Below, piece by piece: positions 22,091 through 60,676 of a stretch of 64,000 nt of DNA (position 1 is its first letter; each line of letters opens with the position of its first letter). The position numbers were made by a program, and so were the translations under genes. The notes under the pieces were generated by a model. It ran no database searches and was not told where the DNA came from. It saw only the letters and a list, made by a program, of their open reading frames with translations. The stretch spans positions 24,132,747 to 24,196,746 of the forward strand of contig NC_091941.1 in assembly GCF_041260155.1 (NCBI RefSeq). Direction: 5' to 3'. The stretch comes from Ptychodera flava (taxonomy: Eukaryota > Hemichordata > Enteropneusta > Ptychoderidae).

Positions 22091-22092
<2 letters not shown>

Positions 22093-22151
<59 letters not shown>

Positions 22152-23631: not shown

Positions 23632-24079
23632 ATGGTTGACGCCGAGACGATCGAAAACTCAGGAATGTCCATTGACGTGGACAAGATTAGGAACTTTGAG
23701 GTTCGGTCAGACGATATATTTGTTCTGACGTACCCTAAATCTGGTGAGTCCATGTAATAGTTACGCAAATAAACCCTGAAGCGAGCACGGCCGCACATCG
23801 GCTGGCATACAATTTTCGTTCGAAACCGCGTCCTACTGGGGTACCTTTACCAAGTCGCTGTCATTTTGATTATGTTAAAGGGGTTTACATGTAAAATTGC
23901 CCAGTTTAAATAGGTCGCATCGATGGTAAAATGGTAACACATAGCTGTGTTGTTTGCTCGACATAGCAGTGTGAATGATACACAAATCACATCATGACAG
24001 ATAATGATGACGACTACGCCGGGGTCGATATTTTCGCTATGGAAACAATTGAATGAAGTCATCAGCGCACACATGAAAC

Positions 24080-31508: not shown

Positions 31509-31866
31509 GTGATATACGTGGCCAGGAATCCGAAAGATGTCGCTGTTTCCACCTTCCACTTTGTACAGAAGGAACTACCGCTGATCAACAAGAAATTATA
31601 CGATAGTTTCAGTGACTTCCTCCCGGACTTCATGAACGCCAGCAATGGAACCCAAACCGTCATACGTAAGTCACGATACAGTCTCATAATAATTTTCATA
31701 TTACTTTTGTGACGTTATGGCCTGGGGCGGTCACCATCACTAAACCGCGATCAGGCGACAGCGAAATCTTACTTGACGAGCTTTTTTGTAGGTTCTCTAT
31801 TCTTCCAAAGCTACGGTTTAAGAACAGTAATGTATGGGCTATTTCCCGCGTAAAACAACTCATTAT

Positions 31867-35441: not shown

Positions 35442-35654
35442 TAAACATCATCATCGTCGTCATCATATCATTGTCATCGTCGTGGTCGTGGTCGTCGTTG
35501 TCTCTGTTGGCGGCGGCGGCGACTTCTTCGTAACGGCGTCATCATCGTTATCATCAACATGGATGTCTGTAAATATACGCAGGGCACACTGTGTCGGGCA
35601 TTTAAAACGATCTTCGTATTGCTTTTACATTTCGATGCAAGATACACCATTGAA

Positions 35655-35927
35655 ACAGATGAGGGATCGGGCCATGTCTGCAGGGCGCCCTCCTGGAGCG
35701 AGTTCAAAATCAAGTTGATGTCACTCAGTCCATTATTCGTAGCGTCCTTGGCCATAACTCTGCCGACCTCATCGTTGAATAGGTTCATCAGCCTCTCGCC
35801 GACGAGACCCATCGCACACATTTCGTAAGCGTCGCCGAATGACTTTGCTACGGCAGGTCCAAATTCACGGGTGACGCGGTACATCCAAAGAGCCTGGGTA
35901 AAAGCCTGGCTCTGTCCGTTTGGTTGC
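35655..35927 (-). CDS. DUF6973-like terminal exon, copy after gene C
   Basis: Minus-strand reading frame preceded by a good acceptor (pyrimidine tract, then CTGCAG). It contains QAFTQALWMYRVTREFGP, GERLMNLFNDEVGRVMAK and LSDINLILNSLQEGALQTW. The spacing of AFxxALW...TREFGPxxAKSF, NxxVGR and a final helix resembles, from memory, the bacterial-type DUF6973 domain, whose function is unknown. No earlier exons were found at higher coordinates in this window, where the next DNA is transposon sequence, so this copy looks like an orphan exon carried along when the C/D unit duplicated. Residues and length match the two copies after D, except at the extreme ends. Confidence 0.5.
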
Positions 35928-36137
35928 CTGCAGAGCAGAAAGATGAAACGTTACATAAAGATCCAAAACTTATAGTCCTGTATCGGCCTTTTTTCTCGAC
36001 CGGCCATAGAATCTTTAAATAAGATTGCTTCAGGTCCTTATAACCAGGAGCAGATATTTTCTCGAGACACTTAATACAGCAAGCGTTGACTTTCGCATCT
36101 TCTGAGCTCGTCTCCGAACGGATTTAACCGTTAGGGA

Positions 36138-38112: not shown

Positions 38113-38254
38113 TGTTGATAAAACGTATACGCAAGATTGTCAAGGGCAGTGCTAAGCTAAGACCGAAACACCAAAGGCTGGTAGAATATATCTTTATTAG
38201 CGATACAACGAAACACCTACCCACCCTTGGGGACGGACATGTAGACAACCCCCT

Positions 38255-38818
38255 GTGTACAAATCAAGAAATTTCTTGCAACAAACACAACCAACCATGC
38301 AAGAAATTTCTTACAAGGGACACACCCATCCATGCAAGAAATTTCTTGCAAGGGACACACCCAACCATGCAAGAAATTTCTTACAAGGGACACACCCATC
38401 CATGCAAGAAATTTCTTACAAGGGACACACCCATCCATGCAAGAAATTTCTTGCAAGGGACACACCCATCCATGCAAGAAATTTCTTACAAGGGACACAC
38501 CCATCCATGCAAGAAATTTCTTGCAAGGGACACACCCATCCATGCAAGAAATTTCTTGCAAGGGACACACCCATCCATGCAAGAAATTTCTTACAAGGGA
38601 CACACCCAACTATGCAAGAAATTTCTTACAAGGGACACACCCATCCATGCAAGAAATTTCTTGCAATTGACACCACCCATCCATGCAAGAAATTTCTTGC
38701 AACGGACACGGCTAACAGTTGCAGGAAATTTCTTGCAAGGGTGGGTGTGTCCCTTGCAAGAAATTTCTTGCAAGGGACCCACCCACCCTTGCAAGAAATT
38801 TCCTGCAACTGACAAGTT
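38255..38818. repeat. 35-bp minisatellite built on an 18-bp palindrome
   Basis: About 16 copies of a 35-bp unit. Each contains the palindrome TGCAAGAAATTTCTTGCA (or a one-base variant with TTACA) plus a spacer like AGGGACACACCCATCCA. The last four units are more diverged, and at about 38737-38757 the spacer is present in the opposite orientation. Because 35 is not a multiple of three and the unit has no stops, long reading frames arise on both strands. These are by-products, not genes. Confidence 0.92.
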
Positions 38819-39719
38819 GACACGGGTAAGAACCCAACAGATATTTCATAAAGAATGAACTTGTGGCAATGAAATAATGACTGTAATTTGACTTGAAAAA
38901 TAACGAAATGGCTTTTGCTTGCATATTTGCACATATTTCCATGGAAAATCATATTAAAGGATATATTATATATTAATTTAGTTATTTCCATAAAAATATC
39001 TTAAACTATCAAGAAAGTTCAACCACTGTTGATCAAATCAGAAATTCATGGTTAAATTATCAAGTACAGCAGAACTGAATTTTATAACCAGTTATTTAAG
39101 TGGAAATATTTGAAAAAAGTGTGGTTTTCGTTAATTGGGAAATTGTTTTCGTGCTGTTCTGTGAAGAGTTTGTTTACAAATGTCAGATGGCGGGATTCAC
39201 AAGCATAAACTTTCCCATGGTTTGCGTTGATTGCCTTGTTGCCAGATAGCTGAAGTTGTATTCAATGACAGTATAAAATTTACCTAACGGTTAATGGTTG
39301 AATTTAGCGGTTGTGGGGTCACGGGGTCAATCGTCCACTCGCAAAGGCTTTCGGGAGTAAAAATACTATTCAAAATGGCAAAGTGGCAATGCAAGTGCGA
39401 GTACTCGCCAGACAGTTAATTATCGCCCCTAACTGGCAGATTTGAAAGAAATGCTGTAACCAGAGTAAAGATTTGAAAGTTTGAAGGTATTTCCGACCGG
39501 TCGATGTAATTTTTTTTGAGGTAGATGCTTTATTTCGTTTGTTTCGGTCCACCGGTCGATTTATCCGTGACATACCTTGGTAATGGTAATATTAAGCTTA
39601 TACAGTAGTACCGAGGTTCGGCCTTTGGCCCCACAGTGTTAGTCACTTTCCATCCGACGACGATCTACGAAACGTTCCGTACGCCTGTGGCCCACACGGA
39701 CTACCAAAACCTGTGACAT

Positions 39720-40143: not shown

Positions 40144-43100
40144 TTAGGGAGCATTCGTTATTTACGGGGAGGGGGGGGGTCGGTGGAAATCAGGGGGGGG
40201 GTTGACTTTTACAAAACCGCTTTTCAGGGGGGGTCAAATTTTACAATCAATGATTGAAGGGGGGGTCAAATTTTACAAAGGTTTGTGTTGAGTTATGGAA
40301 AACAAAATTGACTTTGGAATTTCACCGAAATGTTGCTTGTGTAACCGATGTTTCGAGACGGCAGAATAATAACCGACCGAAGCTCAGCCAAATTTATTTC
40401 TCTAGCAGGGCCAACAAGTCCGAGACTGGCATTAACCTCTCTAGAGCAGCAACAGAGCATGTAGCCCTGAGTACAGGTCTGTGTGTTCCTGGCGTATACG
40501 GCCTCCACCACGCTGCCCTGCAACGGTCTGTGGAGATAACTGGGGTCTCTGCAGCGAGATTCAAAATGGGGATCGCCATGGGTAAACAACTTGTCGAGTA
40601 TGTTATGTTTCAGAAAATGAGCGGTTTTGGACGTTAGGAGAAGTCAATCGCATCTTTTCTGGGATTGTTAGGAGGTAAAGGTAGGCAGGGAAGGATTTTG
40701 CCCCAATAGAGCAGAATTTCGGCCAAAAAGACCGTTTAGTCTTCATTGCGGTCCAGATCCAGGCCGCAGAGACCTCAAGTCTGTTCAAAGACCATTGCAG
40801 GGCTGTGGTAGAGGCCATATAATGCTGGGAACACACGTGCACACACCTGTACGCAGGGCTACACAGCATGGGGCATGAAAAATTGCCCAAAATGAGGGCA
40901 CACAGTCCATGTAGCCGACAATGAGATGCAAATGATATGCGGTCAAGGTCTCCTCAACTAACTTTCAGCTGGTTCTTCACTTTCTACTATTTTTTTAGTA
41001 TTTTTTACAAAGGCACAGACTTATTCTACCTGCAACTTAAAACTGATAGTGATTTTGTAGCTCATTCTTTACTATTTTTCATAGTTTTTGATAGCCGGTA
41101 ACACACACTTCGTGTTCGTGTCGGCTACATGGACGATCTGCCGAAATGAGGAACCAACACACAGTCATATAATGTAACAAACAACTTCTGTATATATTGT
41201 GTCAAATATCGGGGTCTACATATAAAATAGTAAAACCGTACCCAAAACTATAAATATTACTCCATGGTAACAGTAACCGTACTGATCGACCTCCCGACGG
41301 CAGGAGTCGAACACACTTTCAGAACAAAACTCTGTTCAAACCCTTTCTAAATGCTTAACAATTTCTATGGAAAACTTAACGGTACCGCAGAGGTACCTCA
41401 GACTTGACGACGCGGCTGGGAAACACAAATAGTTCACATGCGACTTTAACTAATGTTCGATGATGAGCACAATTGTAAGTCCCGTGCATGTAATGTCTGC
41501 ACATGAAAGTCGGCGACAACACACGCAATTCACTGCTAAGCAGCGTCCAGTTCAGCTACCACGGGAGCAGCCATCTTACTAATATTCTTACATCTTTTGT
41601 TTACTTCCGGTCGGGACATGCCGAACTAATCTGAAGTCTTACTCTGCTAACTCCGCGCATCGACAAAAGTTCAGTGGAACAATCATAAATAATGTTCTCA
41701 TGACAATCTCAGACATCTGACTGAACTCATAAACGGAATAAAGTTCACAGTTAACACACAATTTGCTGCAGAAAGATCAGCTTTCAACTTGTGGTGATAT
41801 TATCATCTTAGCAGTGCGTATATTGCAAATATACGGCACGGCTTTCACTTGTGTGAGCATAGGGAATTCAGTCTCCGATGATGATGATCAGATGGTGACG
41901 ATGATGATGATTAAACATTAAAAATGAAGGAAAATAAAATATAATCGGACTCAGTAAAGTTGTTGTTGTTGTTATTGTTGTTGTTGATAGTATTTGATGA
42001 AAAGAACAAAGTATGGGTTGCAAATTCAATACAGCCAAACTATACACATGCACTGCAAAATTCAATACAGCCTTTATAGTATACTATACACATGCGCTGC
42101 AAAATTCAATACAGCCTAACTATACATGTGCGTTGCAGCCTAACTATACTATGCGTTGCAAATTCAATACAGCCTAACTATACATGTGCGTTGTAGCCTA
42201 ACTATACATGTGCGTTGCAAATTCAATACAGCCTAACTATACATGTGCATTGTAGCCTAACTATACATGTGCGTTGCAAATTCAATATAGCCTAACATTA
42301 CCCAAGGGTTGTCACTTCATTGCCACACACTTTTTTTCAATCGCCAAAAATGCACCTAGCAAGCATCGAAATTGGTAAAATTCGACGTAGGGTCAAAGCA
42401 CATTAGTCCTTCTCAATCATACTCAGACATTTTTACCTCTTGCCGATGAAAAGTCGACAAATCGGCAGGTTTTTCAATGCATCTAGTCGTCTCTTGATTC
42501 CAGATTTAAAAGGCCCCGCGAAAGATCTAGTCACGTGGGCGCATTTCAATTGAACCAATAGCAGAGCACGTACTGAACGAATGGGCCCGACGTGAAAACC
42601 CGGCAGTAACGTAAGTTTCTCACGTCTTTGGAAAGAACGTTCTCTTGCTATGGGTGAACTGGAACTGTTAAAGTTACCAGAATTTCATACGCAGACGCAC
42701 GCAGACAGTGTCACCCATAGTCTTCAAAAGACATAAGAAACTTACGTTACTGCCGGGTTTTCGCGCTGGGCCCATCCAGCTCTGCTATTGGTTCGATTTG
42801 AAATGCGCCCACGTGACTAGATCTTTCGCGGGGCCTTTTAAATCTGGAATCAAGAGACGACTAGATGCATTGAAAAACCTGCCGATTTGTCGACTTTTCA
42901 TCGGCAAGAGGTAAAAATGTCTGAGTATGATTGAGAAGGACTAATGTGCTTTGACCCTACATCGAATTTTACCGATTTCGATGCTTGGTAGGTGCATTTT
43001 TGGCGATTGAAAAAAAGTGTGTGGCAATGAAGTGACAACCCTTGGGTAATGTTAGGCTGTATTGAATTTGCAACGCACATGTATAGTTAGGCAACAATGC

Positions 43101-44384
43101 ACATGTATAGTTCGGCTGTATTGAATTTGCAACGCACATGTATAGTTAGGCTGTATTGAATTTGCAACGCACAGTATAGTTAGGCTGCAACGCACATGTA
43201 CATAGTTAGGCTGTATTGAATTTCGCAGCGCATACTTTGTTCTTTTCTGCAAATACTATCAACAACAACAACAACAATAATAAAAACAACAACATCATCA
43301 TCATCGGAGCCTGAGGACCCTTTGGTGTGAGCAATGTTCGTTCCATCGACTAAAGTAGAGCATGGCGTAGGGTTTAAATAAACTGTCCGATCCGCACAAA
43401 ATTCGATCTCTGCCACTCACCGGTTTCTTTACATATCTGCTGACTTGAGTAAGACTCAAAATAGAGAAATATCTGACTTAAAAAGCACACGCTGACACTC
43501 AAACCTTCCAGTGCCAGTGCAGCATGCAACGTAAAACACTCTCTGGAAAGTTCCCGTCTTGGACTCCCTAGGTATACAGTGATAACACACAAGAACTCCC
43601 AGGCAAAATAGAAAATACACAGGTCCTCCATACATAATCTATGAGAAGCTATGAATAATTTCTTTTAAATACAAAACTAGCTAAATCTGTGCATTTATAG
43701 ACTCTTGATTATTGATATTAATGTACTTGATAAGACTAGGGTAGTTACCAGTGCATGTGTGAGCAAGAAATTTGATTTTGGAATTTCACCGAATTGTTAA
43801 TTCACTATCTTGTCAGAGGAAACTATGAATAATTTTTTTCCATAACATAACTAGTTAAATCTGTGTATTTATGTACGCTTGATTATTTATATTAATTACT
43901 TGATTAGACTAGGGTGGTAACAAGTGGATGTTTGTGCAAGAAATTTGATTTTGGAATGTCACCGAAATGTTGATTCACTATCTTGTATATATGGAAACTA
44001 TGAATAATTTTTTCCAATATAAAACTAGCTAAATCTGTGTATTTATGTACTCTTGATTATTGATATTAGTGTACTTGATTAGACTACAGCGATTACAAGT
44101 TCATGTGTGTGCAAAAATTTGATTTTTGCATTTCACCAAAAATGTTGATTCTCTAGTATGTGAGGAAACTTTTTCAGCCCGGGGCCACAGGGTGCGAAGG
44201 GTTTAATGAATCAAATCTGATGAATTTTTTTTTTCATGGGGGGGGGGGGTCACATTTTACAATTGATGAATTGAGGGGGGTCAAATTTTAGAAATTTGAT
44301 TTGGAGGGGGGGTCGCTTTTTACGTTTCATTTGTCGCTCAAATTCCACCGCCCCCCCTCCCCGTAAATAACGAATGCTCCCTTA
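40144..44384. mobile_element. 4.2-kb transposon with G-rich terminal inverted repeats
   Basis: The left end TTAGGGAGCATTCGTTATTT and right end AAATAACGAATGCTCCCTTA are inverted copies, each followed inwards by G-rich (or C-rich) runs and GGGGGTCAAATTTTAC-type repeats. TA or TTA appears to be the duplicated target. Inside: a pair of inverted 120-bp segments (about 40450-40570 and 40750-40880), the nested foldback 41872-43309, and three to four copies of a roughly 185-bp repeat at 43640-44150 (GAAACTATGAATAATTTTTT...). No transposase is recognisable. Confidence 0.78.
41872..43309. mobile_element. Foldback element nested in the 4.2-kb G-ended transposon
   Basis: Inverted arms at 41872-42635 and 42718-43309. 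From outside in they hold a GATGATGATG/GTTGTTGTT microsatellite, several copies of a 30-50 bp unit containing CAATACAGCCTAACTATACA, and a well matched inner stretch of about 330 bp that includes GGCCCCGCGAAAGATCTAGT. The loop at 42636-42717 is unique. The number of short units differs between arms, so they have drifted since formation. Confidence 0.8.
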
Positions 44385-44932
44385 CCGTACTCGTCCGATT
44401 TTAACTCCTGCTCGTGTATAATCCCGCTGATTTTAGAGGATTTTTGAAAATGCTTTATATCCGTGTATAAGCCCCTATCCTAGTTTAACTCAAATACAGA
44501 AAGGTTAGGAGAGCATATTTGGTCGTTTAAGTTGGTAAAATTGCTTTTAAATTAAAGAAACTATTAGAAGCTGGTAAAACAATGGGAAACTGGTGTTCCC
44601 GTGACAGTATCGTAAAGAAATGACACGTTTTCCAGCACTTTCTTCATTCTTTGACCCTGGTCACCCCATCGCATAAATAGAATAGTCTTACTACACAGTC
44701 ACGGCCGCCATTGTTTATTTTCATTCACGACCATGATGTTAGTTTTCATTCTCTGAACATGCAGTTTCATTTGTTTGAAGCAATTATCCTTTCGTCTGTG
44801 AAGAGCTTTTTCTGGTCACTATTACAATTTTCACTGCTATGTTGTTGTTTTCACAAGATGCAGAGCGTTTGATACTAGAATGTTGAGTTGCTTTTCCTTG
44901 TAGTCTTTGCATACCAGTTCATACTATGCTGT
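44385..44932. other. Spacer before the LTR element
   Basis: AT-rich, non-coding. Contains two CGTGTATAA words (44413 and 44462) and nothing else recognisable. Confidence 0.4.
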
Positions 44933-47900
44933 AATAATTATTAAGTAAGGGCAGGGGTGCAGCTACGCAGTAACGTACGGCGACAACAGGTGTACGGTGT
45001 GGAACTTGACCAGGTTTATTGACTGTGGTGCCGTGCGGGAACGGCCTATCTCGGGCCGACCCTAGGCCTCCGTGAGAGATGGGGCTCAGTGTAAAACAGA
45101 ATCTCCAGTGAATACCCCTTAATCACGAAAGCAACCTCAATTTATACATTTACAGTTCTTTGTCGGCTCAATCGTCTTAGAAAGTACAATAAATATAACT
45201 TTGAGTTCTACCGACTTTTGAAAAGAAACAATGTACAAGTTATCAGTTTGCCCACATAACAATATTGTTTAAGATCCAAGCCAAGATCTATTGTCCAACT
45301 TTGTACACAAGGGAATCTATGAATAATCATGAGAATTCATACTATACGGGTTCCTGAACGGCGGCGCCATTTAATTAGAACAAAGAATTGTGAAAATGCA
45401 TCTTCGCGCCAATTTTGAAAGATATGTGGGACATAATCTCACGCCCGTGCGATTTTTAAGAAGGTAAAATTGCAGCAAATGAGAAAATTATAGAAATATG
45501 ACATCGTTCATTCTTCCACAAAGGCTTGCCCTCAAGCCTTAAAAAGTGTCTCAAATATTCCTTAATTAAGCGACTTTCTAGAAATTGAATTTTCGGTAAC
45601 TGAGAAAATTATAGAAATATGGCAAATATCAAAATACACAAGAAAATAGCATGTAAAACTTCCAACAATCGTAAAAATAGTCAGTGAAAAGTAAAGACAA
45701 ACTTTGTAATTGAAACGAAAACAGAACAATATATCTTTGCATACAAAACGCTAGATCGAATATATACAAGAACGCTCTCGCATCGGTGAAATGTTTGATA
45801 TCGCAAAAAAGGGAAATAAGAAAAAAGGGAATCTATATGTGATATTGTGTCGGCGACTAGAGATTAAAAAAACACGGCATGTTCTCAGTGTATGTTAGAC
45901 AAACTACTTGCGTTTATCCATTTTTCGGACGCCTATTCATTTATCATCGCTGACGAACACTGCATGTTGAACGCTTCAAAAGGAAAAATACTCTAAAATC
46001 TCGCAATATGGCAATATGTCTAATATTTCGCAACATATATAATATTTCTAACTTATTACTTCTTTTACTCTTACGCATTCTTCAGATTCAAAGAAAAGAT
46101 AAATTACTAGCGTTTTTCGCTACTCAAGGCCGCTTTCTTCATTTATCCCCCAGGGTCCGACTGGTCGCTCTGCCATCGGAATGTCGCTGGTGAATCCAAT
46201 GCTGTCTCTATAAATTACGCATAACTTACTCGGTATACATTTTAAAATAACAAAAAAGCCACGGGAAAAAAAAACGATGTCTACCAAAAATATCGCCACA
46301 TAGATTCAGGTAGAATGTTTCCAAGTAATAAAAAAGAATCGCGAAACGAATGGCTTGAAAGTAGCTCGTGTCATATTCATCAGAGACAGAACAAATTCAT
46401 AGACACTCGCGCATGAACAAAAACAATTGCGGTCAAGGACATGACAACAGTTTAAAGGTGCTCAAACGACAAAGATTGGCCCGCGCAATACCACCCTATC
46501 GGAGCAGCGACTAAAGACCGGCATCGTCATTCTAAGACGCAAAATGTAAATGCTTAATAGGCAACCAACAGAAAACCTTGTTTAGGTGCTCTAACAGACA
46601 TAAACCCCGCGCTTATAAAGTTGATGACTGGAGCATTTCATCAAAACAAAAAAAAATGCTGTCGGGAGTGTGAAGAATTTGCGATGAAATCCAACAAAAA
46701 GGCACAAATTAAAAAGTTTTTTTTTTTAGTAAAAAAGAAAATAACAGAATTTTCACCAATGGAGATACGTTGATGACATCATATAGCGTTTTGGCAAGGA
46801 CGAAAAAAAACTCAGAGTATCACTTTAAAAACACTCTATCAGCTTATACAAACTAAATTCAAACAAGTTCAATACAGACTATTGTCCGACAGTTCAATGT
46901 TCGTGTTTGCTTCTTTAGTTGAATATTTCATCTCATGGTTAAAGTTGGTTTCGCAGTGGAACTAGAATATTACCTTGTTGTCGGGGCGCTAGATGTACGG
47001 CATCTCTGGAGACGTTGGTCTACGGAAAGTTCTTGCTACGGATTCCATTCTGGGTTTGGTACAGCTGACTGGAGTGGACTTGGCCCTGCTTTGAGCGTCG
47101 AAGTGCGCTTGGTAAGGCATCTTCTTCAATTCGTCTGTATCGCTGCAGCCGTCCCGTTGAATCCTCTGATTTCTAGGATTTGACAGCGACTTCTGGCGAA
47201 TTAATTCGTACAGTCAACTCACTGTTCTTTTCGTGGATCGCTCGTGTAAGATGACAACACGGTCTTCGCTCAGGGAACAGCTTTAAACTGCAACTCACTT
47301 TGTAGATCTGGTTACGGGGATTACTGTCTGGTTACGGGGATCACTCACCCACTCGCTTAGCAGTCAAGAGACAGGTCGATTTTCCGAGCAGACTTTTAAA
47401 CCGGGTTTGGTCCTCCACCATGTAATATCTCCTTTAAAAAATACTTCATGTTCTCGGGGAATTTTCACTCCTCTGGTAGAGCTGTCTCGCTTGGCGACGA
47501 GAGGTGGCTGACGACCAAATGTCAGTCTTCTTACCGGAACTTCGGATTCTCCATCATGTCATAATATCAAAATAAGGGCAGGGGTGCAGCTACGTAGTAA
47601 TACGGCGACAACAGGTGTACGGTGTGGAACTTGACCAGGTTTATTGACTGTGGTGCCGTGCGGGAACGGCCTATCTCGGCCGACCCTAGGCCTCCGTGAG
47701 AGATGGGGCTCTGTGTAAAACAGAATCTCCAGTGAATACCCTTAATCACGAAAGCAACCTCAATTTATACATTTACAGTTCTTTGTCGGCTCAATCGTCT
47801 TAGAAAGTACAATAAATATAACTTTGAGTTCTACCGACTTTTGAAAAGAAACAATGTACAAGTTATCAGTTTGCCCACATAACAATATTGTTTAAGATCC

Positions 47901-48122
47901 AAGCCAAGATCTATTGTCCAACTTTGTACAAAAGGGAATCTATGAATAATCATGAGAATTCATACTATACGGGTTCCTGAACGGCGGCGCCATTTAATTA
48001 GAACAAAGAATTGTGAAAATGCATCTTCGCGCCAATTTTGAAAGATATGTGGGACATAATCTCACGCCCGTGCGATTTTTAAGAAGGTAAAATTGCAGCA
48101 AATGAGAAAATTATAGAAATAT
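44933..48122 (-). mobile_element. Non-coding LTR element (TRIM/LARD-like)
   Basis: Two direct repeats of about 550 bp (44946-45499 and 47573-48122), roughly 98-99 percent alike by eye, flank 2.07 kb without any long reading frame. On the minus strand the repeat holds a TATA-like TGTATAAATTG, then AATAAA near its 3' part, as an LTR should. The 13-bp word CATACTATGCTGT lies at 44920-44932 and again at 48123-48135, directly after the right repeat, and may be a target duplication longer than usual. The close match of the two repeats argues for recent insertion. With no coding capacity it would depend on another element. A segmental duplication is the alternative. Confidence 0.6.
45500..47572 (-). 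other. Interior of the LTR element
   Basis: No long frame on either strand, and no recognisable gag or pol motif or primer-binding site. Short words from the LTR edge (GAGAAAATTATAGAAATAT) recur at about 45602. Confidence 0.45.
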
Positions 48123-48530
48123 CATACTATGCTGTTGATCAGCAGCATACAAGACGTCTTTGTGTCAAGGTGTGGGGTTTTGATGCTGAAATTTCACAAA
48201 ACTGCCATTCTGTATCCAGAGATTGTTTAATCAGTTTGATTTGAAATAGCAATATAAAACACTGTGAAAATCATGGCTGAGTTTTGCTGTCTTTTATCTA
48301 TGGTTGTCGATCAGTATCAATGTATTGCGGTCTGTATAGAGAGACTCGGTGATGCCAGTTCATAAAGATCATGAGAATATTTTTCTGTTTTTCTTTACTA
48401 AAGTTACAATTCCTTTGCATGTGTAATCCGATTTTGAAAGTGATAGAAAGTATAAAAAACGTCAAAGGCGTGGTGTACAAGGCCAAAGTATCAACGAGGA
48501 CAACGGAGAGAGGGTTTAGGAGAGAGGGTT

Positions 48531-48855
48531 TATATCGGCCTCACTGATAACACCTTCAAGACGCGCTACACTAATCACACGAAATCGTTCCGTAACGAGA
48601 GATACAAAAACGACACCGAGTTGTCAAAATTCGTATGGAACTTAAGAAATAAAGAAATAAGAACCAAGACTTTGACATTTCATGGTCAATCATTGATAAA
48701 GCATTGAGCTACTCTAACATGAACGAGCGATGTAATCTTTGTATATCCGAAAAGCTCCTCGTTATCAATGCTGACAAATCTACACTGTTAAACAAACGCT
48801 CTGAGTTGGTTTCAAAATGTCGCCACCAAAACAAATATTATCTATCGAATTGTAA
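48531..48855 (+). mobile_element. Penelope-like retroelement fossil, GIY-YIG end
   Basis: Two blocks read like the C-terminal GIY-YIG endonuclease of Penelope-like elements: [20 protein letters not shown] at 48531-48590, and RCNLCISEKLLVI with LLNKRSELVSKCRH further on (about 48730-48830). The YIG, the Arg in FKTRY, the CxxC and the Glu after it are the conserved landmarks. The reverse transcriptase part is absent, so the copy is 5'-truncated as is usual for the family. It is an old, broken copy with a few interruptions. The tail runs through a hammerhead-like sequence into a TA microsatellite. Confidence 0.72.
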
Positions 48856-48910
48856 CACCACCTACAAATAGAATGGTTCGTTCCAATCATATATGTAAGA
48901 GTGTCGAGCT

Positions 48911-48976
48911 AGTAATCATTTCACTCTATCTGAGGATTGCAAGATGCATGAAACTTAAGTAATAGATTACATTACT
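48911..48976 (+). ncRNA. Candidate type I hammerhead ribozyme of the Penelope tail
   Basis: All core parts are present in order. Stem I strand TCTAT is at 48925-48929, CTGAGGA (CUGANGA box) at 48930-48936, and a stem II hairpin TTGCA-AGA-TGCAT at 48937-48949. GAAAC is at 48950-48954, a TTAA minimal loop follows, then GTA as cleavage triplet at 48959-48961 and ATAGA at 48962-48966 closing stem I. Beyond an internal loop, AGTAAT (48911-48916) pairs with ATTACT (48971-48976). The minimal stem III of one C-G pair plus the A-U core pair is the known style of Penelope hammerheads. One weakness is a U-U at the base of stem II where G-C is usual. The predicted cut is after 48961. Confidence 0.68.
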
Positions 48977-49029
48977 TTAAAATGTACTTGAAGTAATCTG
49001 TTTATTTATAACGCTCTGCTTTTGCTTTT

Positions 49030-49175
<146 letters not shown>

Positions 49176-49672
49176 CACAAATTACCTATATTAGGCCTAC
49201 ATAACACAAATAATTATATTGAACCCGTTTTTGAAAATTTCGAACTTGAAGCTGTCATTCCGGTTTGACTATACCGAACCACATCTTGCCTTTTTGGTTG
49301 CGCAAATATGGTGACCTTCCCCACAAGTATGCGCAAAATTACGCGACCCTTCAAAAAACCAAATACGAAAAACGGTAACCAACACATAACCCCGCTCCCC
49401 TTACGTAATTTCTGTCCAGTCTCTTGGCGAAGGGGAACCAGCAACCGTGTAGGAACTTGTCAAACTGGTAGGGTGAATTTCAGATTATCTGTCTGTGAAT
49501 ACAACACAGGTCAAAGTACCTGAACTCGGCGGTTGTTAAAGGCAGCAGTGACAATACGGGTCCAAAGGTACAATACGGGTCCAAAGGGCTTCCATTTATA
49601 CCACCTCGCACCCATTTCTTCACCGCGCTGTTGTATCAAAGTTTGAATTACTATCAGCTCGACTGGTCCACG

Positions 49673-52600
49673 ATGGTTGACGCAGAGACGATCGAAAACT
49701 CAGGAATCTCCATTGACGTAGACAAGATTAGGAACTTTGAGGTTCGGTCAGACGATATATTTGTTCTGACGTACCCTAAATCTGGTGAGTCCATGTAACA
49801 GTTACTATGAGTTGTGCAAATAAACCTGAAGCTTGCGAGCACGACCGCACGTCGGCTGGCATGCAAATATCGTTCGAAACAGCGCCTTGTTGGCGTACCT
49901 TTACCAAGTCGCTGTCATTTTGATTATGTCAAAGGAGTTTACATGTAAAATTGCACAGTTTAAATATGTCGCATCGATGGTAAAATGGTAACACATGGCT
50001 GTTGTTTGCTAAGCATAGCAGCGTGAATGATATTAATTCGCTGTTTGACAGAAGATGATGCATGATGAACGACTACGCCGCGCCGGTTCGGTACTTTAGG
50101 CTGCGTTCACAAAAAACGGTTAGGGGGGGGGGGGCTGGAGGAATTCAGGGGGATTCGAAAATTTTGGGGGTAGTGGAGGGGGGGGACTTGAAAATTTTGC
50201 TCTACCTGTAGGGGGGGACTTGAAAATTTTTGGGTCCCTTTTGAGTTTTACATTTTCCAATTCCAAGTTTTTGTAGGTAATTCAATGAAAAATGAATACC
50301 ATTTTTTATGTCATCAAAATGTTGTAATGTTAGTAATGATTTAACAAAGAACCATTTTGTCACATTTCATGACTTTTATCTCAAAAAAATCTAAACGTGT
50401 GATTTGTCGTAAAAAGCAAACGAGCCTCGTAACAGGGCAGAAGCTGCAACTGTTAATGATTTCTGCAATATTTCTATGCAATATAACAACTACAGTTTCT
50501 TGCTATCTCCCTACAGCATGCTCAAACACACAATATTTAGTTTGTCGACAAAGCCTGTATATATAAAGAAAAGTATGTATTTGGTGATAATTTAATTGGA
50601 GTCCAGACTGACAGTCAGCTGTCAGTGATACAAATGCATGGCACACATACATAGGCTGTGACAGCAAGCTGAATACTGGACAATTCAACATGGTGTAGGG
50701 AGTAGAACAAGAACGCAGTTGTAAAACTGAACAAAAATATTGCCAAAATTATCAAAGTTAATACAGCTACTGCCTACGGGTAGTGTCACTATCAGATACT
50801 ACCCTGCTACTGCAGTGTCACTGTCACTGCATACCTGAACAGTGACAGAGACAGCTCTGACTCTGATGTACATGGTAGTTGAAGAAGAGTTTTGGTCAAA
50901 TGACACTCATGACAGTGAAACTCACTTGTACACAAGATCAGGCCAGAGAGCAACACATGGAAGAAAACACATAGAAATTTTTGAATTCTGGCATATGAGA
51001 ATAATCAAATATTAAAGAAAAAAGATGGGGTCACCATGCTTGATTTTCTAAATTTTCACTCACTTATTATAAAATGATACAGAAGTAAAACTTTGAACAG
51101 TAAAGACTAAAAGAAAAAATATGTGACCAAATGGAATTATTTATTTTTTAACCAAATATTTAATTATTACACCCAAAATTTCAGAGATTAAAACATTTAT
51201 TTGATGTAATATTTTAACCTTCCAGTATTGTCAATTTTGAGTAGCATCTAATCCATATATGTCTTGTAGTTTTGAAACAAATTTTCGGTAGGTCACTGTG
51301 CGATATGGCAATTAGCCAGAATTGACAATTTTCCTACTCTCTCATGATTGCATTTTGTGTGCTCTTCAACAGGAGCATTGACCTGGCAAGAGTTGGATTG
51401 ACTCAAGTTGGCTTTTAGACCAATAAATCTAAAAAATCACTGATGCATTTAAACAACTTGCCTTTAGAATATGACTATACAAAGTGCTAATACAGGTAGT
51501 GTTGAACACCTGTGAGCAGAACGGCGCAATACATGTTTATTTTTTCTGCGCTCACATCCTCTATAAATATGCGAGCCTGTGATAGTTTGGGGGGGGGGAC
51601 TTGAAAAATTTTGACCACATAGAGGGGGGGCATTTGAAAATTTTTAGGGTACTTAGGGGGGATCTGAAAAAAAAAAAGATTTCGATCGAGATTCCTCCAG
51701 CCCCCCCCCAATCGTTATTTTTGAACGCAGCCTTATACGCTATGGAAACAATTAAATGAAGTCATCACCGCACACATGGAAATCCTCCTTGTTTAGCTTC
51801 ATTCCACGATTAAATGATATTGAACTTCATAGCTATTGGTCAACTTATTCAAATTTCATGTGACAACTGACAGACACTAATTACTTCGTAAAAGTTGAAC
51901 ATTCAACAGCGTTGAAATGAGTGGTATTTCTTGCAGCATGACATTTTAGTCTGACCTTTCAACTGACAGCTGGACACAGTTTGACCTTTTGAGGAGTGAA
52001 CCATTTAAAATGAGGGGGCTAACATTTTTTCGGGAGGGGTGATTTGTTGTCAGCCAAATGTGACAGAAGAAAGGGTATATGTTTGCCTTCAGGGAGGTGG
52101 GAAAAATTGCTACAATTGACATCGACCTTGGATTGGATACAAAGCAAGACTGGATTAGGCTGCATCACAGACAAACATGGACAGATTCGCAACGGGTATT
52201 GTTTAAGGCGTGAAGCGGTTACGTAACCCATCCATGTTTGCTTTGCCTCAGGTTGCTCTCGCCTCTCTTTTCTGAAGAGTGCAGACCATGCATCCTTCGG
52301 TAATTTTCGGATTTTCGCCAATTATTAAGCGAAAGTATGTTCGGCAAAGTTTGTGTTGTTGTTGTCCTGTGGTGCTGAGCGGAATTGACATGCTGGCGAA
52401 AATGGGAGTGTTTTGAGCTTCAGGAAAGTGAGTTTTACCGTTTTAAAAATTCCTCTCATATTTTTATGAATATATAATGAGTGTGTTTGAACCAAATTTG
52501 AAAGTCTTTTATCGATACTGTCTGGTTTTACTCAATGGTTTAGGGTCAGTCATACCGTCTTTTACACGTGCGTCAAGGAAGGACATGTTTATGAAACTGC

Positions 52601-55600
52601 TGGCGTGTTATGTTTTGATTGGCGTGAAGCAGTGTTTCTGGCCTGTAAACTATGGTTGCTACGCGACTGGCAGTACGATGCCATCTCGTCGTATTTTTCA
52701 CATAATCTCGTGCAATTATCAACCACAAACAAAGCCTCCAAAAAGTTTAACACCTTTGAAGCTCATTTTAATATGAAAAGCCAATAGTCTGCCGAGACGA
52801 CCATGGAACAAAAGGCATGCCGCGTTTCCAGTCTGTCTATATTTGTCTGTGGCTGCATTCACAATACTGGTGGGGTGGTGGAGGAATTCGGGGGGGGGGG
52901 GGTCGAAATTCTGGGAGTAGTAAGGTTGGGAGTAGTAGAGGGGGACTTGAAGGTTCTGCTCTGCGTATAAGGGGGGACCTGGAAATATTTTGGTTCCCTT
53001 TTATTTTTTTACATTTTCCGATTCCGAGGTTTGGTAGGTAATTCAATGAAACATGGATAACATTTTTATGTCATCCAATGGTTCTGATTTTGGCAATAAT
53101 TAAACAAATCTAGAACCGTTTTGTAGCAGTTCATGACTTTTATCTCGAAAAAATCTAAAAATGTATGAATCCCATAAATTATCGCAAAAAGACAAGTAGG
53201 CTTTGTAACGGGGCAAAAGCTGCAACTGTTGATAATAATATATCTATGCAATGTATAATATGCAGTTTCTTGCTTACTCCCTACAGCATGCTGAAACACA
53301 TTATTCAGTTTGTTGACAAAGCTTGTACATATAAATATTGGTGATAATTGAGTTAGAGTCCAGACTGAAAGTCATATGTCCATGATACAAATGCACGCAA
53401 CACATACAAGGGCTGTGTTGGCAAGCTGAATACCTGACAGTTCAACATGTTGTAGGGAGTAGAACAAGAGCGCAGTTGTATAAACTGAACAAAAACAAAT
53501 AATCAAAATTAATACAGCTGCCCTGCTACTGCAATGTCACTGTCACTGTCACTGCATACCGGCTGTGACAGAGATAACTCTGACTGTGATGCAGTTGTAG
53601 TTGAAGAAGAGTTCGGGTCATTTGACGCTCAAGATGATAGTGAAACATACTTGTACACAAGATCAGGCCAGAGAGCAACACATGGAAGACTAGGAGACTT
53701 GACAGTTATCAGGGATTTTTGAATTCTGGCCTATTGGAATAATCAGATATTGAAAAAATGATGAGGTCAACATGCTTGATTTTCTACATTTTACAAATGT
53801 ACGACAAAAAGGACGTTTTTGACGAAAACCACTCAAAATCAATATTTGAAACCTTTCAAGTCCATGCAGTATGAATGAAATTTTCACATTCTAATCGTAC
53901 AATGACACAAATTAAAGTAAAACTTTAAATGTTAAAGACTCTACTTTAAATGGAAAAATGAGTGGCTGAATGGAATTATTTGCTTTTTACCAAATTTTCC
54001 ATGATTACAGCCAAAATTTCAGAGATCAACATGTTTATTTGATGGAATATAAAATTAATAGGGCTTTAAACTTAAGCTTACGTACACGTGGAGACGCCGC
54101 GGCTGGTTACGATTCAATTGGGTGGTTGGCCCTGATTCATTTAGTACTTACATGTACTATTTAAATAATAACACATGAGAGCGAGGGCAAGATCACGATT
54201 TATTGCCTGCCCAAGGGATGGTGGTCATGATCGAAATATTGATGATGCCCGAGCCGTAGGCGAGGGCATCATCAATATTTCGATCATGACCACCAGCCCG
54301 AGGGCAGGCAAAAAATCGTGATCTTTCTCTCGCTCTCATGTGTTATTATTTTTATTACACCGAACAAACTTCTTCGAGTACAGTTCACCTTTCTGCATGA
54401 GTCCGGCCCTCAGCGTAAAATGTTGTCAGTGCCAAGTCTAGGGTTGCCGCTGAAAGTTTGCCGATCTCCTCGGTCGCGTATCCAAAATTTGTTGCTTGCA
54501 TAGTCGCTGAACACAGAAATTGCATTCCTGTTGCCATTTTCGTTCGTTTGCTGTTTACTTGCATCAAAATATCGTCTAACTGTGCCGGTGACAGGTCTGC
54601 ATGACGTTCGCAGCGATAGTAGCAAGTACAAGCGAACGACAATTTGTTACGCGCAGAAAGGATGCGCAGTAAGTAAAATGACGTCATCCATGTAATATCA
54701 AATGCAGAGGGCATCATCAAGTTCGCAGAGGGCATCATCACGTTCGCAGAGGCATCATCATGTTCTTTTACATGTCACGTGAGTCGTGTTTAACCAATGG
54801 CAGTGCACGCTGAATGAGTGAGGTGTAATAATTATTTTTTTTTCAATTTTCTTCGACCTTCACTTTGAGTGCAGGGACAACATGGATGAAAGAAGTTGTT
54901 CCCTTGGTGATGAATGGAGGAGATATTGACGCAATCAACAAAGTGCCACCAGATGTGAGGGCGCCCTACATAGAATTCGTAATTTCTCCGAACCACCCTA
55001 GCATGAGTGGGGTTACCACACACTTTGGCCTGCCTGAAGGGTTCGACCTCGACACCCAACCGTCTCCCAGGATAATCGTGTCACATTTGCGGCCAGAGTT
55101 CCTTCCTACGCAAATGGAAGAAAAGAAACCGAAGGTACAGAAGTTGTACAGAGGCTTATATTAGCTTATAGTCTACTTTATTTATGTATTTATACCTTAT
55201 TTATTCATATTTAGGCTGCGTTCACAAATAACGATTAGTGGGGGGGGGGGGGCTGGAGGAATCTCGATTGAAATCTTATATTTTTTGAGCTCCCCCTAAG
55301 TACACTTAAAAATTTTCAAATGCCCCCTCTATATGGTCAAATTTTTTCAAGTCCCCCAACTATTACAGGCCCGCATATTTATAGAGGATGTGAGCGCAGA
55401 AAAAATAAACATGTATTGCGCCGTTCTGCTCACAGGTGTTCAACACTACCTGTATTAGCACTTTGTATAGTCATATTCTAAAGGCAAGTTGTTTAAATGC
55501 ATCAGTGATTTTTTAGATTTATTGGTCTAAAAGCCAACTTGAGTCAATCCAACTCTGGCCAGGTCAATTGCTCCTGCCGAAGAGCACACAAAGTGATAAT

Positions 55601-58600
55601 CATTGGAGAGTAGGAAAATTGTGAATTCTGGCTAATTGCCATATCGCACAGTGACCTACCGAAAATTTGTTTCAAAACTACAAGACATATATGGATTAGA
55701 TGCTACTCAAAATTGACAATACTGGAAGGTTAAAATATTCCATCAAATAAATGTTTTAATCTCTGAAATTTTGGGTGTAATAATTAAATATTTGGTTAAA
55801 AAATAAATAATTCCATTTGGTCACATATTTTTTCTTTTAGTCTTTACTGTTCAAAGTTTTACTTCTGTATCATTTTATAACAAGAATGTGAAAATTTAGA
55901 AAATCAAGCATGGTGACCCCACCTTTTTTCTTTAATATTTGATTATTCTCATATGCCAGAATTCAAAAATTTCTGTGTGTTTTTCCGTGTGTTGCTCTCT
56001 GGCCTGATCTTGTGTACAAGTATGTTTCACTGTCATGAGCGTCATTTGACCCAAACTCTTCTTCAACTACCACGTAAATCAGAGTCAGAGCTATCTCTGT
56101 CACTGTTCAGGTATGTAGTGACAGTGACACTGCAGTAGCAGAGCATTAATGATAGTGACACTACCCATAGGCAGTATAGCAGTCTTAACTTTGATAATTT
56201 TGGCAGTATATTTGTTCAGTTTTACAACTGCGTTCTTGCTCTATTCCCTACAGCAAGTTGAATTGTCTAGTATTCAGCTTGCTATCACAGCCTATGAACG
56301 TGCACCATGCATTTGTATCACTGACAACTGACTGTCAGTGTGGACTCCAATTAAATTATCACCAAATACATATTTATATTTATATATACAGGCTTTGTCG
56401 ACAAACTAAATATTGTGTGTTTGAGCATGCTGTAGGGAGATAGCAAGAACCTGTAGTTGTTATATTGCATTGCAGAAATCATGAACAGTTGCAGCTTCTG
56501 CCCTGTTACTAGGCTCAAGTTTGTTTTTTACGACAAATCACACGTTTAGATTTTTTCGAGATAAAAGTCATGAAATGTGACAAAATGGTTTTAGATTTAA
56601 CTTACAACATTTTGATGACATAAAAATGGTATTTATTGTTCATAGAATTACCTACAAAAACTTGGAATTGGAAAATGTAAAACACTAAAGGGAACCAAAA
56701 ATTGTCAAGTCGCCCCCTTCAAGGAGGGCAAAATTTTCAAGTCCCCCCTCTACTACCCTCAAAATTTTCGAATCCTCCGAATTCCTCTAGCCCCCCCTAA
56801 CCATTTTTTGTGAACGCAGCCTTATACTGGTCATCTCCCTCAATCAACCAGATATAAACTGTAAATGCTCACGTGTTTCATTATATATTGCAGTTATGTG
56901 TAAATTTGAACCTTTGCCACATGTTTGCAACTTCATTGAAAGTATTATGATCAACATAATGAACAATATTCACCACAGATTAACTCTGTAGGTCATTAAG
57001 TATTCAAATACGTAATTAGCTGCAATAGAAATAATTAATTTCTTTGACTGCTGTCACTGTATCACCTTTTTATATAGCAAGTGTAATTGCCTCTTGTCAA
57101 GTCCTTCAAACTGTATATTCCAAACTTTGTAAGTTCATTAGATATGCAAACTATAAATTAGCTGACTTGAAAACTTAAGTGCGAAATGACTTCCAATATT
57201 GGTATAACCTGGTATAATCATCAATGTACATACCATGTTATGCCAACTTTATATATCCCTAATTAGGAAAGCTCATTAAATACACAAATTAGGAATTTGC
57301 TGAAGCAAAAATGCTTAATGCCTTTCGATAATGTTAGCCTACATAATAGTATCTTTAATGTACATAGCAAGTTTCATCAATTTTAGTCATGTAAAATCAA
57401 ATATATATCCCTAATTTCAAAAATTCATTAAATATGCAAATTAGTAGCTGCATGAAGTAAAAATGCTTAATGACTTTCAATAATGTCGTATTATAGTATT
57501 TTTAATGTACGAAATGTACAAAATGTTAAAAATGTACAAAAGGATACCAGAGATATAAATGTCTGTGAGTTATGTATGAGACGTGTACACATGCTCTAAG
57601 CAAAATGAAGGAAAAAGGATTCCCGTATTTTCTCAAACAGGCCAAGGTTAGTGCAATATAATAAAAATTTCTGGAGGTTTTACGGCTGCTCTTCAGTATA
57701 TCAGTCGTTTTACCACAGTCCTTACAACACAAGAGGGACTGTGTTTTACGTACAGTGTATGACTCCAGAATGCCCCAACGAATTGAGCACACGTTTTACA
57801 GTTCGGAAAACGAAAAGAAGTATTCTTAACATTTGCATGAAATTATTGATCCTAATTGCAGGTGATATACGTGGCAAGGAATCCGAAAGATGTAGCTGTT
57901 TCCACCTTCCACTTCGCACAGAAGGAACTACCGGCGATCAATAAGAAAGCGTACGATGGTTTTAGTGACTTCCTCCCGGACTTCATGAACACCAGCAATG
58001 GAGCCCAAACCGTCATATGTAAGTCACGATAGTCTCATATTAATTGCCTCATTGCCTTTTTAACGTTATGGCCTAGGGCGGTTACCATCACTAAACCGCG
58101 ATCAGGCGATAGCGAAATCTTACTTGACGAGCTTTTTTGTACGTTCTCTTTTCTTCCAAAGCTATGGTTTAAGAACAGTAATGTATTGGCTATGGGCTAA
58201 ACAACTCATTATCGATCGATCGATAACCATTGTCCTTGTAGTCATCATCATCATCGTCATCATCATCGTCATCATCACCATAATTATCAAAGGAATATGT
58301 GTTGTCAGTTTTAATACATATTCACCATAATCACAACAGTCAAACAGTCTGACGTCGCCCGTAATATTCGACACCCAAAATATCGCTATACTTCTTGTCT
58401 TAACACCATTGGTGTTCACTTGTCGCAATTATAACACAGTATTAATTACACTGGTTTACTATATTGGTCAAGTACATAAATTGCGCCGATTCTACACGAC
58501 AATTACAATATGACAGCCGCTATAAAATTCATGTTGTCGATCATATGTAGATGACGGTTCGACGTGGCCAAAGCACGTTCTGACATGGTGGAACAAGCGA

Positions 58601-60676
58601 CATGAACCGAATGTGTTTTTCGTTACCTTTGAAGAAATGAAAAGGGTTTGTATACGTATTATTGTTGTTCTATGCCTCAATTTACAAGCGTGTCAAATGT
58701 AATGCTAATGGAGAAGCACCTCCTACCCTCATACATAATTGTTTTACGCATCGCAAACCGCTGGCCGTATTTGGATAAACTCGTGTTAATGCGTCCCGAA
58801 TCTTCATTTGTGTGTTGTACAAAGTTTACTCTTGAATAGCGCACATAGTTCACAAGTTGTCGCTTGTACCGTAGACTCTAAACAGAAGGTCTATGCTTGT
58901 ACTTACATGGCGGATTAAATTGTTCAATAGAGAGCGGAACTGTATACATTAATGTTGGATATTTCGACTGCTCTGGATATTTGAGTACATCAAAAGCAGT
59001 TCCTTGGTAATATCGAGGGAGGCGATGTTGTGAATGTGTACCAAGTTAGAAACAAAACTGGCGTATCTTTTTTCTGTTTGGGGCGTTTTAGTTTTGCTGA
59101 GTCATTCAACGTAAAGTTCGATTAAAATTAATTTTAATGCAATCATGATGTTTAACAGAAACATATAATTTAACCTTCTGCAGATGTTCCGAGAGTAACC
59201 AATTCCCAATTTCGTATCAGCCAGTGATTTACAATTTCAAAGAACATTGAATTCACTGCATCGTGGCACAAGCAGACTTATTCCGTGTCTTTGCCGGGCA
59301 ATTAAGATTTAACACTCTTGATTGCACTGTGATAGTGTTCTTATACCCTGGCCTTCAATTTCAGAGCAAACCAACGAAAACTGAGTTTTTATTGTACCTC
59401 TTGGGGCAAATGACAGACCTTATGTAAGACATCGAAAGTACACGATGCAAGTTTCTGATTTGCTTGATCAAATCTTCCAGCATTTGTGTGTGTCTGATTT
59501 TTCCGAGCATTTTTCTTCAACTCAAGGCGGTAGAAAATGCCTGATAGACGGTATATTGAAGCGAGATCTCGCTTCTGATGTCTACGGTTGAAGCCACTGT
59601 TAAGTCAATAAACACGTGTCGATCACTCCTTGAGCAGAAAACTCAAAATGGTGTTTTTCTTTGCAATGTTCACCAGGACTTGGCAGGCAGTGTTTCGAAA
59701 CTTGCGAAATTCCTCGAAAAGGAACTTGATGACGATGTAGTGAAGAAAATCGCCGACCATTGCAGTTTTGAAAGTATGAAGAAAAATCCCGCCGCCAGAA
59801 AGAATGACTATTGCGTCAATGTCTTGAAAGTGGATCCAGCAGAGGCCTCACCGTTTGTACGGAAAGGTAAATACGTAATCATTTTCAGACCTCTGTCCCT
59901 AGCAGTGGGGTCCAAAATTCTGTCCTGAAATTTGCAGTTGTACATGTGTCGTCGTGACTTACAGTTTTACGTAGCCGACAAGCAATGGTGACAATATTGC
60001 ATTTTTTGTGTTGGTATATGGTCTGTATAGCAGTGAGCAGACCATCTAAATGTGTGGAAAATATTCCATTCCCATCTAACCTTCTTCCGATATATCGCAT
60101 AGAAATACATCCTACCCATTGATTTTAGGCAGTATTTTGGTTTTGAGCAATATTTTAGTGTTTATAGACATGCAGCTTGGAACCCAGCCACATTTTCAGA
60201 CTCCAGGAACATACTGACGCAGTTTCAGACACCTCAAACTTAATGACACTACGACTAGATCCTTGACTAAAGAAATGGGCCAGGGGAACTGGTTAAGACC
60301 GACGCGCAACCATTTGCTTCCCGCATAGATTTCTAAAACATTCATTCTGCAAATGACCTTCAAATATATGTGAGTACCTGACCAAGCTATGAAGATACAC
60401 AAATGATAGTACAATGACCTGTTCTTGCATTTCTATGTACAAGTCAATGGAACTGGCCGTCACTGTACAACCACTAGATACAGTACAGGCACCTCGATAC
60501 CAATAAACTGACAACACACTTAATTCTTCAAGCATTTCATCACTGGCATTTCTCTCTCATCAGGGAAGGTTGGCGGGTGGAAAGCGGTCTTCAGTGTAGC
60601 AGACAACGAGAAATTCGACCAGGGGTACACAGAATGGCTCAAAGGAAGCGACTTCCATGCGGAGTTTGAAATTTAG
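49673..60676 (+). CDS. Cytosolic sulfotransferase gene D, six exons, intact
   Basis: The only array member with every exon in frame: 49673-49784, 54875-55134, 57862-58018, 58551-58645, 59677-59866 and 60564-60676, giving 308 residues (about 295 is usual for animal SULTs). Visible motifs in order: TYPKSGTTW near residues 34-42 (PAPS 5'-phosphosulfate loop); SHLRPEFLP near 107-115, whose His aligns with the catalytic base of SULTs; VIYVARNPKDVAVS near 125-138 (3'-phosphate binding Arg and Ser); HCSFESMKKNP; and PFVRKGKVGGWK near 267-278. KAVFSVADNE matches the KxxxTVxxxE dimer motif with Ser for Thr. There is no signal peptide or membrane segment, which fits a cytosolic enzyme. Intron 1 (5.1 kb) and intron 2 (2.7 kb) are mostly transposon sequence. 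Donors are GTGAGT, GTACAG, GTAAGT, GTTTGT and GTAAAT. Substrate is unknown. Confidence 0.93.
50096..51735 (+). mobile_element. 1.64-kb G-ended transposon upstream of exon 2 of gene D
   Basis: Ends TTAGGCTGCGTTCACAAAAA and TTTTTGAACGCAGCCTTA, with TTA or TA at both borders. The subterminal DNA is GGGGGACTTGAAAATTTT repeated. Gene C keeps the empty site near 24030 (TTTTCGCTATGG against TTATACGCTATGG here). The interior is non-coding. The same element in reverse orientation lies 3.5 kb away, after exon 2. Confidence 0.8.
52185..52848 (+). repeat. Segment shared with intron 2 of gene C, here in intron 1 of D
   Basis: Direct-orientation match to 30300-30965. The reading frame at 52477-52776 is not preserved in the other copy and is not proposed as a gene. 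At its right edge a G-ended transposon has inserted. Confidence 0.6.
52850..54056 (+). mobile_element. Truncated G-ended transposon in intron 1 of gene D
   Basis: The left end GGCTGCATTCACAATACTGG, a G-rich stretch, and an interior resembling the 50.1-kb element and the copy at 25.3 kb (TTTTATCTCGAAAAAATCTA). The right end is missing. The sequence switches at about 54056 to intron DNA that matches gene C near 27300. Confidence 0.65.
54166..54836. mobile_element. Composite hairpin MITE 38 bp upstream of exon 2 of gene D
   Basis: It opens with an inverted repeat of about 85-bp arms (54166-54252 and 54265-54350) with AATATTGATGATGCCC and its complement. About 480 bp follow, including three copies of a GCATCATCA-GTTCGCAGAGG unit at 54700-54765. 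It ends GAGGTGTAATAATTA. The outer ends TAATAACACATGAG and the complement of CTCATTCAGC..GGTGTAATAA are loosely inverted. Gene C lacks it: TTTAGTATTTATTATTTTTC is continuous there. The pyrimidine tract and acceptor of exon 2 survive intact just beyond. Confidence 0.65.
55211..56824 (-). mobile_element. 1.61-kb G-ended transposon downstream of exon 2 of gene D, inverted
   Basis: Ends TTAGGCTGCGTTCACAAATA and TTTTTGTGAACGCAGCCTTA. The interior is the reverse complement of the 50.1-kb element almost throughout; for example CTTGTAGTTTTGAAACAAAT is found in the other orientation at 51260. It starts only 77 bp after the end of exon 2. Confidence 0.82.
56848..57522 (+). mobile_element. Partial element with 145-bp tandem repeats in intron 2 of gene D
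   Basis: The head CCAGATATAAACTGTAAATG and about four units match the two elements in gene B. It stops without the GACA tail at about 57520 and joins DNA that matches gene C at 31160 onward. Confidence 0.7.
58210..58285 (+). repeat. GATC then ATC microsatellite in intron 3 of gene D
   Basis: ATCGATCGATCGATAACC followed by a short run of about 12 ATC/GTC units. The array is strongly shortened compared with gene C. Confidence 0.9.

Follow-up and report, generated by a model that had tools for sequence, protein, structure and literature searches.

Does the short AU-rich motif at 48911-48976 represent a hammerhead ribozyme, and if so, to what kind of element does it belong? The window, i.e. the whole stretch of 64,000 nucleotides that was analysed, contains it on the + strand, between the end of a broken open reading frame (ORF) and a long (AT)n array. 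As far as the DNA itself can tell, the motif is very probably the minimal type I hammerhead of a Penelope-like element (PLE), of which an old copy, 5'-truncated and frame-shifted, has its 3' end here. That PLEs carry hammerheads is already known and has been in print since 2014. The features on which the following account is built are listed here, with the kind of evidence in brackets.

48446-48871, + strand: end of a broken ORF whose pieces alternate between two frames; it has GIY-YIG-like motifs and the stop TAG at 48869-48871 (frames; reading of the motifs)
48505-48532, + strand: 14-bp tandem duplication without mismatches, located at the YIG motif of the broken ORF (repeat scan, frames)
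48911-48976, + strand: entire motif of a minimal type I hammerhead, including the outer stem I as proposed (letters, single descriptor match, Markov null)
48924-48967, + strand: stretch aligned to positions 1-45 of Rfam RF00163, Hammerhead_1 (19.1 bits)
48925-48929, + strand: 5' strand of stem I, TCTAT, whose partner is ATAGA at 48962-48966 (letters, descriptor)
48930-48936, + strand: core CTGAGGA, canonical CUGANGA (letters, pattern)
48937-48949, + strand: stem II, with U-U at its foot (48937/48949), TGCA/TGCA (48938-48941/48945-48948) and the loop AGA (letters, descriptor)
48950-48953, + strand: core GAAA (letters, pattern)
48953-48960, + strand: ACTTAAGT, an 8-nt perfect palindrome forming a stem III of 2 bp with a TTAA loop (palindrome check)
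48961, + strand: predicted cleavage position, H17 = A, cut 3' of the A (by analogy with hammerheads)
48962-48966, + strand: 3' strand of stem I, ATAGA (letters, descriptor)
48977-49022, + strand: proposed 3' tail of the element past the hammerhead (weak match to 22064-22016 on the - strand)
49032-49171, no strand assigned: (AT)n array following the tail (repeat scan)

The hammerhead letters and their rarity

The core of a type I hammerhead, CUGANGA...GAAA...UH (H not G), is present in the form of CTGAGGA, GAAA and TA. It is surrounded by three helices in an arrangement that is open at stem I, with 5 bp in stem I, 4 bp in stem II above the U-U and only 2 bp in stem III. The last of these consists of C-TTAA-G (48954-48959) followed by T at 48960, an A-U and a C-G pair being formed around TTAA. 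Farther out, AGTAAT (48911-48916) faces ATTACT (48971-48976). All core and stem letters claimed in a preliminary description of this DNA indeed lie where it had placed them.

Such an arrangement is rare in DNA of this composition. The pattern CTGANGA-N(5-30)-GAAAC-NNNN-GTH has one match on the two strands of the 64-kb window and none in 100 shuffles. A descriptor that combines the core with stems I and II of at least 4 bp each, and tolerates a mismatch at the foot of stem II, also finds one site on both strands of the window. When a single core mismatch was tolerated, with at least 5 bp in stem I and at least 4 bp in stem II, the scan returned this same site and no others. In a second-order Markov null fitted to the window, the core together with stem I of at least 5 bp and stem II of at least 4 bp was matched 75 times in 2.72 billion bases, corresponding to 0.0035 per 64-kb window on both strands; the loop of stem II may be slightly tighter in the null script than in the descriptor scan, a difference which favours the null. 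Real DNA provided a second control: CTGANGA-N(8-30)-GAAACTTAAGTA matched 26 stretches of IMG/VR, several of which are copies of one another. A stem II of at least 4 bp exists in five of these 26, all five with a stem I of 0 bp. Since stem I falls short of 3 bp in all 26, the letters of the core alone do not entail the fold.

Could the motif nevertheless be a hammerhead-like string that arose by chance in AT-rich repeat DNA and never was a ribozyme? A scan of many windows would meet such matches at the rate of 0.0035 per window, and both the Rfam score below gathering and the unremarkable folding energy (see below) are what a fortuitous string might show. However, neither the position just 3' of the stop of a PLE-like ORF nor the palindromic stem III was demanded by the descriptor, and if the match is confined to the ~200 nt found there and to that strand, arithmetic on the Markov null brings the expectation down to ~5e-6. 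We therefore regard a chance origin as improbable.

Covariance models give a more nuanced picture. Scanned against Rfam, the whole window contains no family at its gathering score, and a scan of 301 bases with E-values up to 10 produced 21 matches with no hammerhead model among them. These 21 matches were discarded: 16 concern microRNA models, 18 overlap the (AT)n array and all are under gathering. When the input was reduced to 76 bases, for which the filters are laxer than for longer input, Hammerhead_1 (RF00163) came out as the top of two matches with 19.1 bits and an E-value of 0.011 over 4227 families. The other match, ohsC_RNA, was rejected (15.3 bits vs a gathering score of 50). Rescaling the E-value of Hammerhead_1 to a single family and 64 kb gives ~0.002, which is close to the Markov null. 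Within the alignment, the 14 model positions corresponding to stem II are skipped and 13 bases stand in their place, leaving stem II unscored, and stem I has a non-standard pair at its outer end. The model represents stem III as an unlooped, self-complementary ACGcgCGU, to which ACUUAAGU conforms except for two pairs that differ on both sides.

The covariance evidence speaks for the hammerhead but stays under the curators' threshold, as the gathering score of Hammerhead_1 (34 bits) is not reached. The preliminary description had named a covariance score below threshold as an outcome that would count against a hammerhead, and on this point the result (19.1 vs 34) goes against it. More generally, this one example of a minimal AU-rich motif under the Rfam type I gathering score is a hint that searches of this kind may overlook others.

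Putative Penelope-like surroundings and rival origins

Three pieces of reading frame make up the ORF remnant: GVVYKAKV in the frame of 48440, a piece ending in FVWNLRNK in the frame of 48441 and a last piece, FDISWSII...CNLCISEK...LNKRSELVSKCRHQNK...TTYK, which is in the frame of 48440 and runs into the TAG. The 14-bp duplication coincides with the frame break at the YIG motif. The motifs GVVY, VYIG, KTR, CNLC-SEK and LNKR are presumably those of the GIY-YIG domain and the C-terminus of a Penelope-like polyprotein. The hammerhead motif begins 39 nt 3' of the stop, which corrects the distance of 100 bp from a GIY-YIG remnant given in the preliminary description; the GIY-YIG identity of the remnant is a reading of these motifs.

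Profile searches with the remnant were negative. Pfam returned no family for two of the three ORF pieces and only SMIM43 for the third (E 0.084, under the cut-off), and none for any of three further queries; NCBIfam returned no family, PHROGs only two weak families of unknown function (E 0.089 and 0.39) and the PDB only TetR proteins (E 0.17-0.19). Peptide patterns of the ORF matched 7 and 10 stretches in viral_contigs and 75 and 70 in genome_contigs, none of which was confirmed. For the second ORF piece, the sole query used there, neither phages nor plasmids contained a match, and a DNA pattern with the exact stem I matched no stretch of viral_contigs. The gene content of the window suggests an animal host, and none of these collections is expected to hold animal PLEs.

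Toward the 5' side, the listed open stretches between 44000 and 48440 do not exceed 86 aa, and no reverse transcriptase was seen. Another repeat occurs just upstream of the remnant, with two copies (44930-45499 and 47557-48122) that are 97.7% identical over 570 nt and 2.6 kb apart. Since the second copy ends at 48122, the remnant begins between this position and about 48460, and we infer that it is 5'-truncated.

On the 3' side, ~45-55 nt separate the motif from the (AT)n array. The segment 48966-49025 resembles 22064-22016 on the - strand (74.5% over 51 positions, E 2.85e-4), an E-value reached by 2 of 300 dinucleotide shuffles; within this match TTATAACGCTCTGCTTT is exact over 17 positions, and 22064-22016 adjoins another (AT)n array. 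The second locus may be a tail-only insertion that lacks the hammerhead, or the two sites may share a palindromic AT-rich repeat. The match is weak evidence for an end of the element near 49022. According to excerpts of two papers, PLEs insert preferentially into AT-rich DNA, and a tail signature is left behind (PMC11167929, PMC3846280).

The locus around 22 kb is itself a foldback: 22016-22207 surrounds an (AT)n array with arms (22057-22089 and 22175-22207) that are 82% complementary, both of which resemble the post-hammerhead tail at 48983-49010. It could be composed of truncated PLE tails in opposite orientations, or be a palindromic repeat. Other repeats are scattered through the window. 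In one inverted repeat (50964-51592 / 55353-55983), possibly a foldback element or an inverted duplication, the complementarity of the arms is 97% over 386 nt and 98% over 216 nt, and ~4 kb separates them. In another (42195-42549 / 42798-43152), arms of 355 nt are 98% complementary, lie 248 nt apart and overlap short direct repeats. At 38201-38858, a repeat array that reads as the CKKFLARDTPIHARNFLQGTHPSMQEIS type is open in all three + frames, being a short-period DNA repeat without stops, and an ORF on the - strand (35474-35950) matches Pfam DUF6973 (E 2.3e-9).

PLEs are not the only carriers of such motifs. Retrozymes also bear type I hammerheads and share animal genomes with PLEs, as stated in the available part of PMC7229834, and the motif might be what is left of a non-autonomous animal retrozyme that came to lie beside the ORF remnant by accident. 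Animal retrozymes, however, are described in the same excerpt as tandem repeats of ~150-450 bp (PMC7229834), and a second hammerhead is absent from the window. Between 47500 and 50500, the reported tandem repeats are limited to units of 14, 2 and 19 bp; this interval contains a single motif, and no array of ~150-450-bp repeats each with a type I hammerhead. In addition, a 2-bp stem III with a palindromic loop suits the PLE type better, even if amphibian retrozymes can also be very short in this respect (PMC7229834, in part). A retrozyme origin is accordingly considered highly improbable.

A different possibility is that the hammerhead was retained by the host and cuts transcripts that enter the sulfotransferase-like gene downstream. 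The motif is on the same strand as this gene, ~700 bp upstream of the probable first coding exon at 49670. However, homology to a paralogous gene begins only at 49404, and the paralogous upstream region, which has an (AT)n array, contains neither a hammerhead nor the ORF remnant. This absence of the hammerhead from the paralogous upstream region puts the motif outside what the gene copies share. The fold is weak, and the ORF at 49499-49798 has no Pfam match. A clean empty site near 23.3 kb could not be shown, since nothing in the paralogous upstream region convincingly corresponds to the far flank of the remnant. Overall, a host function of this kind appears most improbable. Just as slight is the prospect that the hammerhead has survived the decay of its element and continues to cut read-through RNA 5' of the sulfotransferase-like gene, alone or with a copy at another place; if true, a PLE relic would serve the host locus as a site of RNA processing.

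As to the gene itself, the probable first coding exon (49670-49805, no Pfam match) recurs at 446, 7597 and 11721 and within 23381-24021. Sulfotransfer_1 (Pfam) was detected in 4 of the 8 ORFs queried, the gene copies being at 17555-17905, 31380-31712, 54832-55164 and 59560-59928.

Folding, dimers and the prospect of activity

The hammerhead of a PLE thus remains the preferred reading, and the question becomes whether this copy can be expected to cleave. Free folding with ViennaRNA does not prefer the hammerhead fold. Within 48905-48985, the hammerhead structure including the outer stem has a free energy of -1.7 kcal/mol vs an MFE of -10.6, i.e. the competing fold is better by ~9 kcal/mol. Pair probabilities of stem I are ~0.01 in the 66 nt of 48911-48976 and 0.54-0.82 in the trimmed 42 nt of 48925-48966. 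The preferred pairing in the longer RNA is GTAATC (48912-48917) with GATTAC (48965-48970), which takes bases of two stem I pairs. The preliminary description had extended stem I by AGTAAT/ATTACT; its letters are present, but the shifted GTAATC/GATTAC pairing is favoured and conflicts with stem I, and the outer stem was therefore dropped as solid evidence. Free-energy folding was likewise abandoned as support, a 91-nt stretch folding no better than its shuffles (z = 0.42, 116 of 200 at least as good). These results count against activity, although not decisively, because ViennaRNA omits the tertiary contacts of hammerheads.

The U-U below stem II, which had been feared to weaken activity, is present and less damaging than supposed. 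It is a known variation: HHR_Amex2 of the axolotl, an active hammerhead, has a U-U at the base of helix II together with a helix III of 2 pairs and a tetraloop (PMC7229834, in part). For the genomic repeat of HHR_Amex2, the same excerpt reports 22% cleavage after one hour and far better cleavage by the dimer (PMC7229834).

Dimers are also what the stem III of the present motif would permit, as ACTTAAGT at 48953-48960 is a minimal stem III and perfectly palindromic. Two copies could share a stem III of 8 bp; the resulting double hammerhead has -14.8 kcal/mol vs -29.2 for the co-fold MFE, and the best co-fold of two separate copies likewise includes the 8-bp palindrome pairing. PLE hammerheads are described, in the part of PMC7761336 available, as minimal type I motifs, some of them mapped to pseudo-LTRs, which are arranged in tandem and possibly cleave as dimers. 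Cutting as a dimer, according to an excerpt of another paper, requires that the motifs be in tandem and that the stem III loop be palindromic (PMC6466107).

In a functional element, tandem copies would give rise to read-through RNA bearing two hammerheads. Each of them by itself would be weak, with only two pairs in stem III, but ACUUAAGU of one copy could pair with that of the next to create a shared stem III of 8 bp. Cleavage by each core would then take place 3' of the A located just before stem I and would set free RNA of unit length, its ends being a 2',3'-cyclic phosphate and a 5'-OH. We infer this dimer mechanism and its role from the literature by analogy; the available part of PMC7761336 describes the role of PLE hammerheads as unknown. 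At the present locus, the tandem arrangement of two motifs was not found, there being one motif in 64 kb. Little or no activity is expected because the window holds no partner copy and the competing fold is favoured. The broken ORF also speaks against activity, and this copy of the hammerhead is probably inactive or weak.

Comparison with known hammerheads

The proposal that a minimal type I hammerhead marks the 3' end of a PLE fits both the sequence and the published descriptions, with the PLE part depending on the reading of the ORF motifs. The locus adds one more case to the hammerheads of Penelope-like elements and leaves knowledge of the ribozyme itself unchanged.

The closest known counterparts are the minimal type I hammerheads of PLEs (Cervera and de la Pena 2014; Lunse, Weinberg and Breaker 2017; both via excerpts of PMC7761336, PMC6155905 and PMC6466107). 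The present motif has in common with them the type I order of the stems, a near-absent stem III, a palindromic loop and a position beside the end of a PLE-like ORF. In contrast, it occurs here as a single copy with no tandem partner seen in the window, its stem II has a U-U foot and the ORF is broken.

PAc, the hammerhead of Poseidon in Anolis, is similarly situated in a repeat region of a PLE with a C-terminal GIY-YIG domain and an AT-rich target, as far as the excerpt of PMC11167929 goes. Insertions of that element which end beyond the hammerhead are also described there (PMC11167929), a likeness to this copy. According to the same excerpt, PAc differs in that its ORF starts at stem II and in that cleavage is only observed with added protein (PMC11167929). 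For a PLE hammerhead, this paper cites Mg2+ concentrations of 3-25 mM (PMC11167929). At the present motif, unlike PAc, the two ATGs (48944 and 48948) reach stops within five codons.

HHR_Amex2 shares the helix III of two pairs with a tetraloop and the U-U at the base of helix II, and it performs better as a dimer, in the account given by the available part of PMC7229834. It differs from the motif described here in its genomic setting, being part of 350-bp tandem repeats that comprise about 60,000 motifs (PMC7229834, same excerpt). It is also credited there with a loop-loop contact, likely less stable (PMC7229834).
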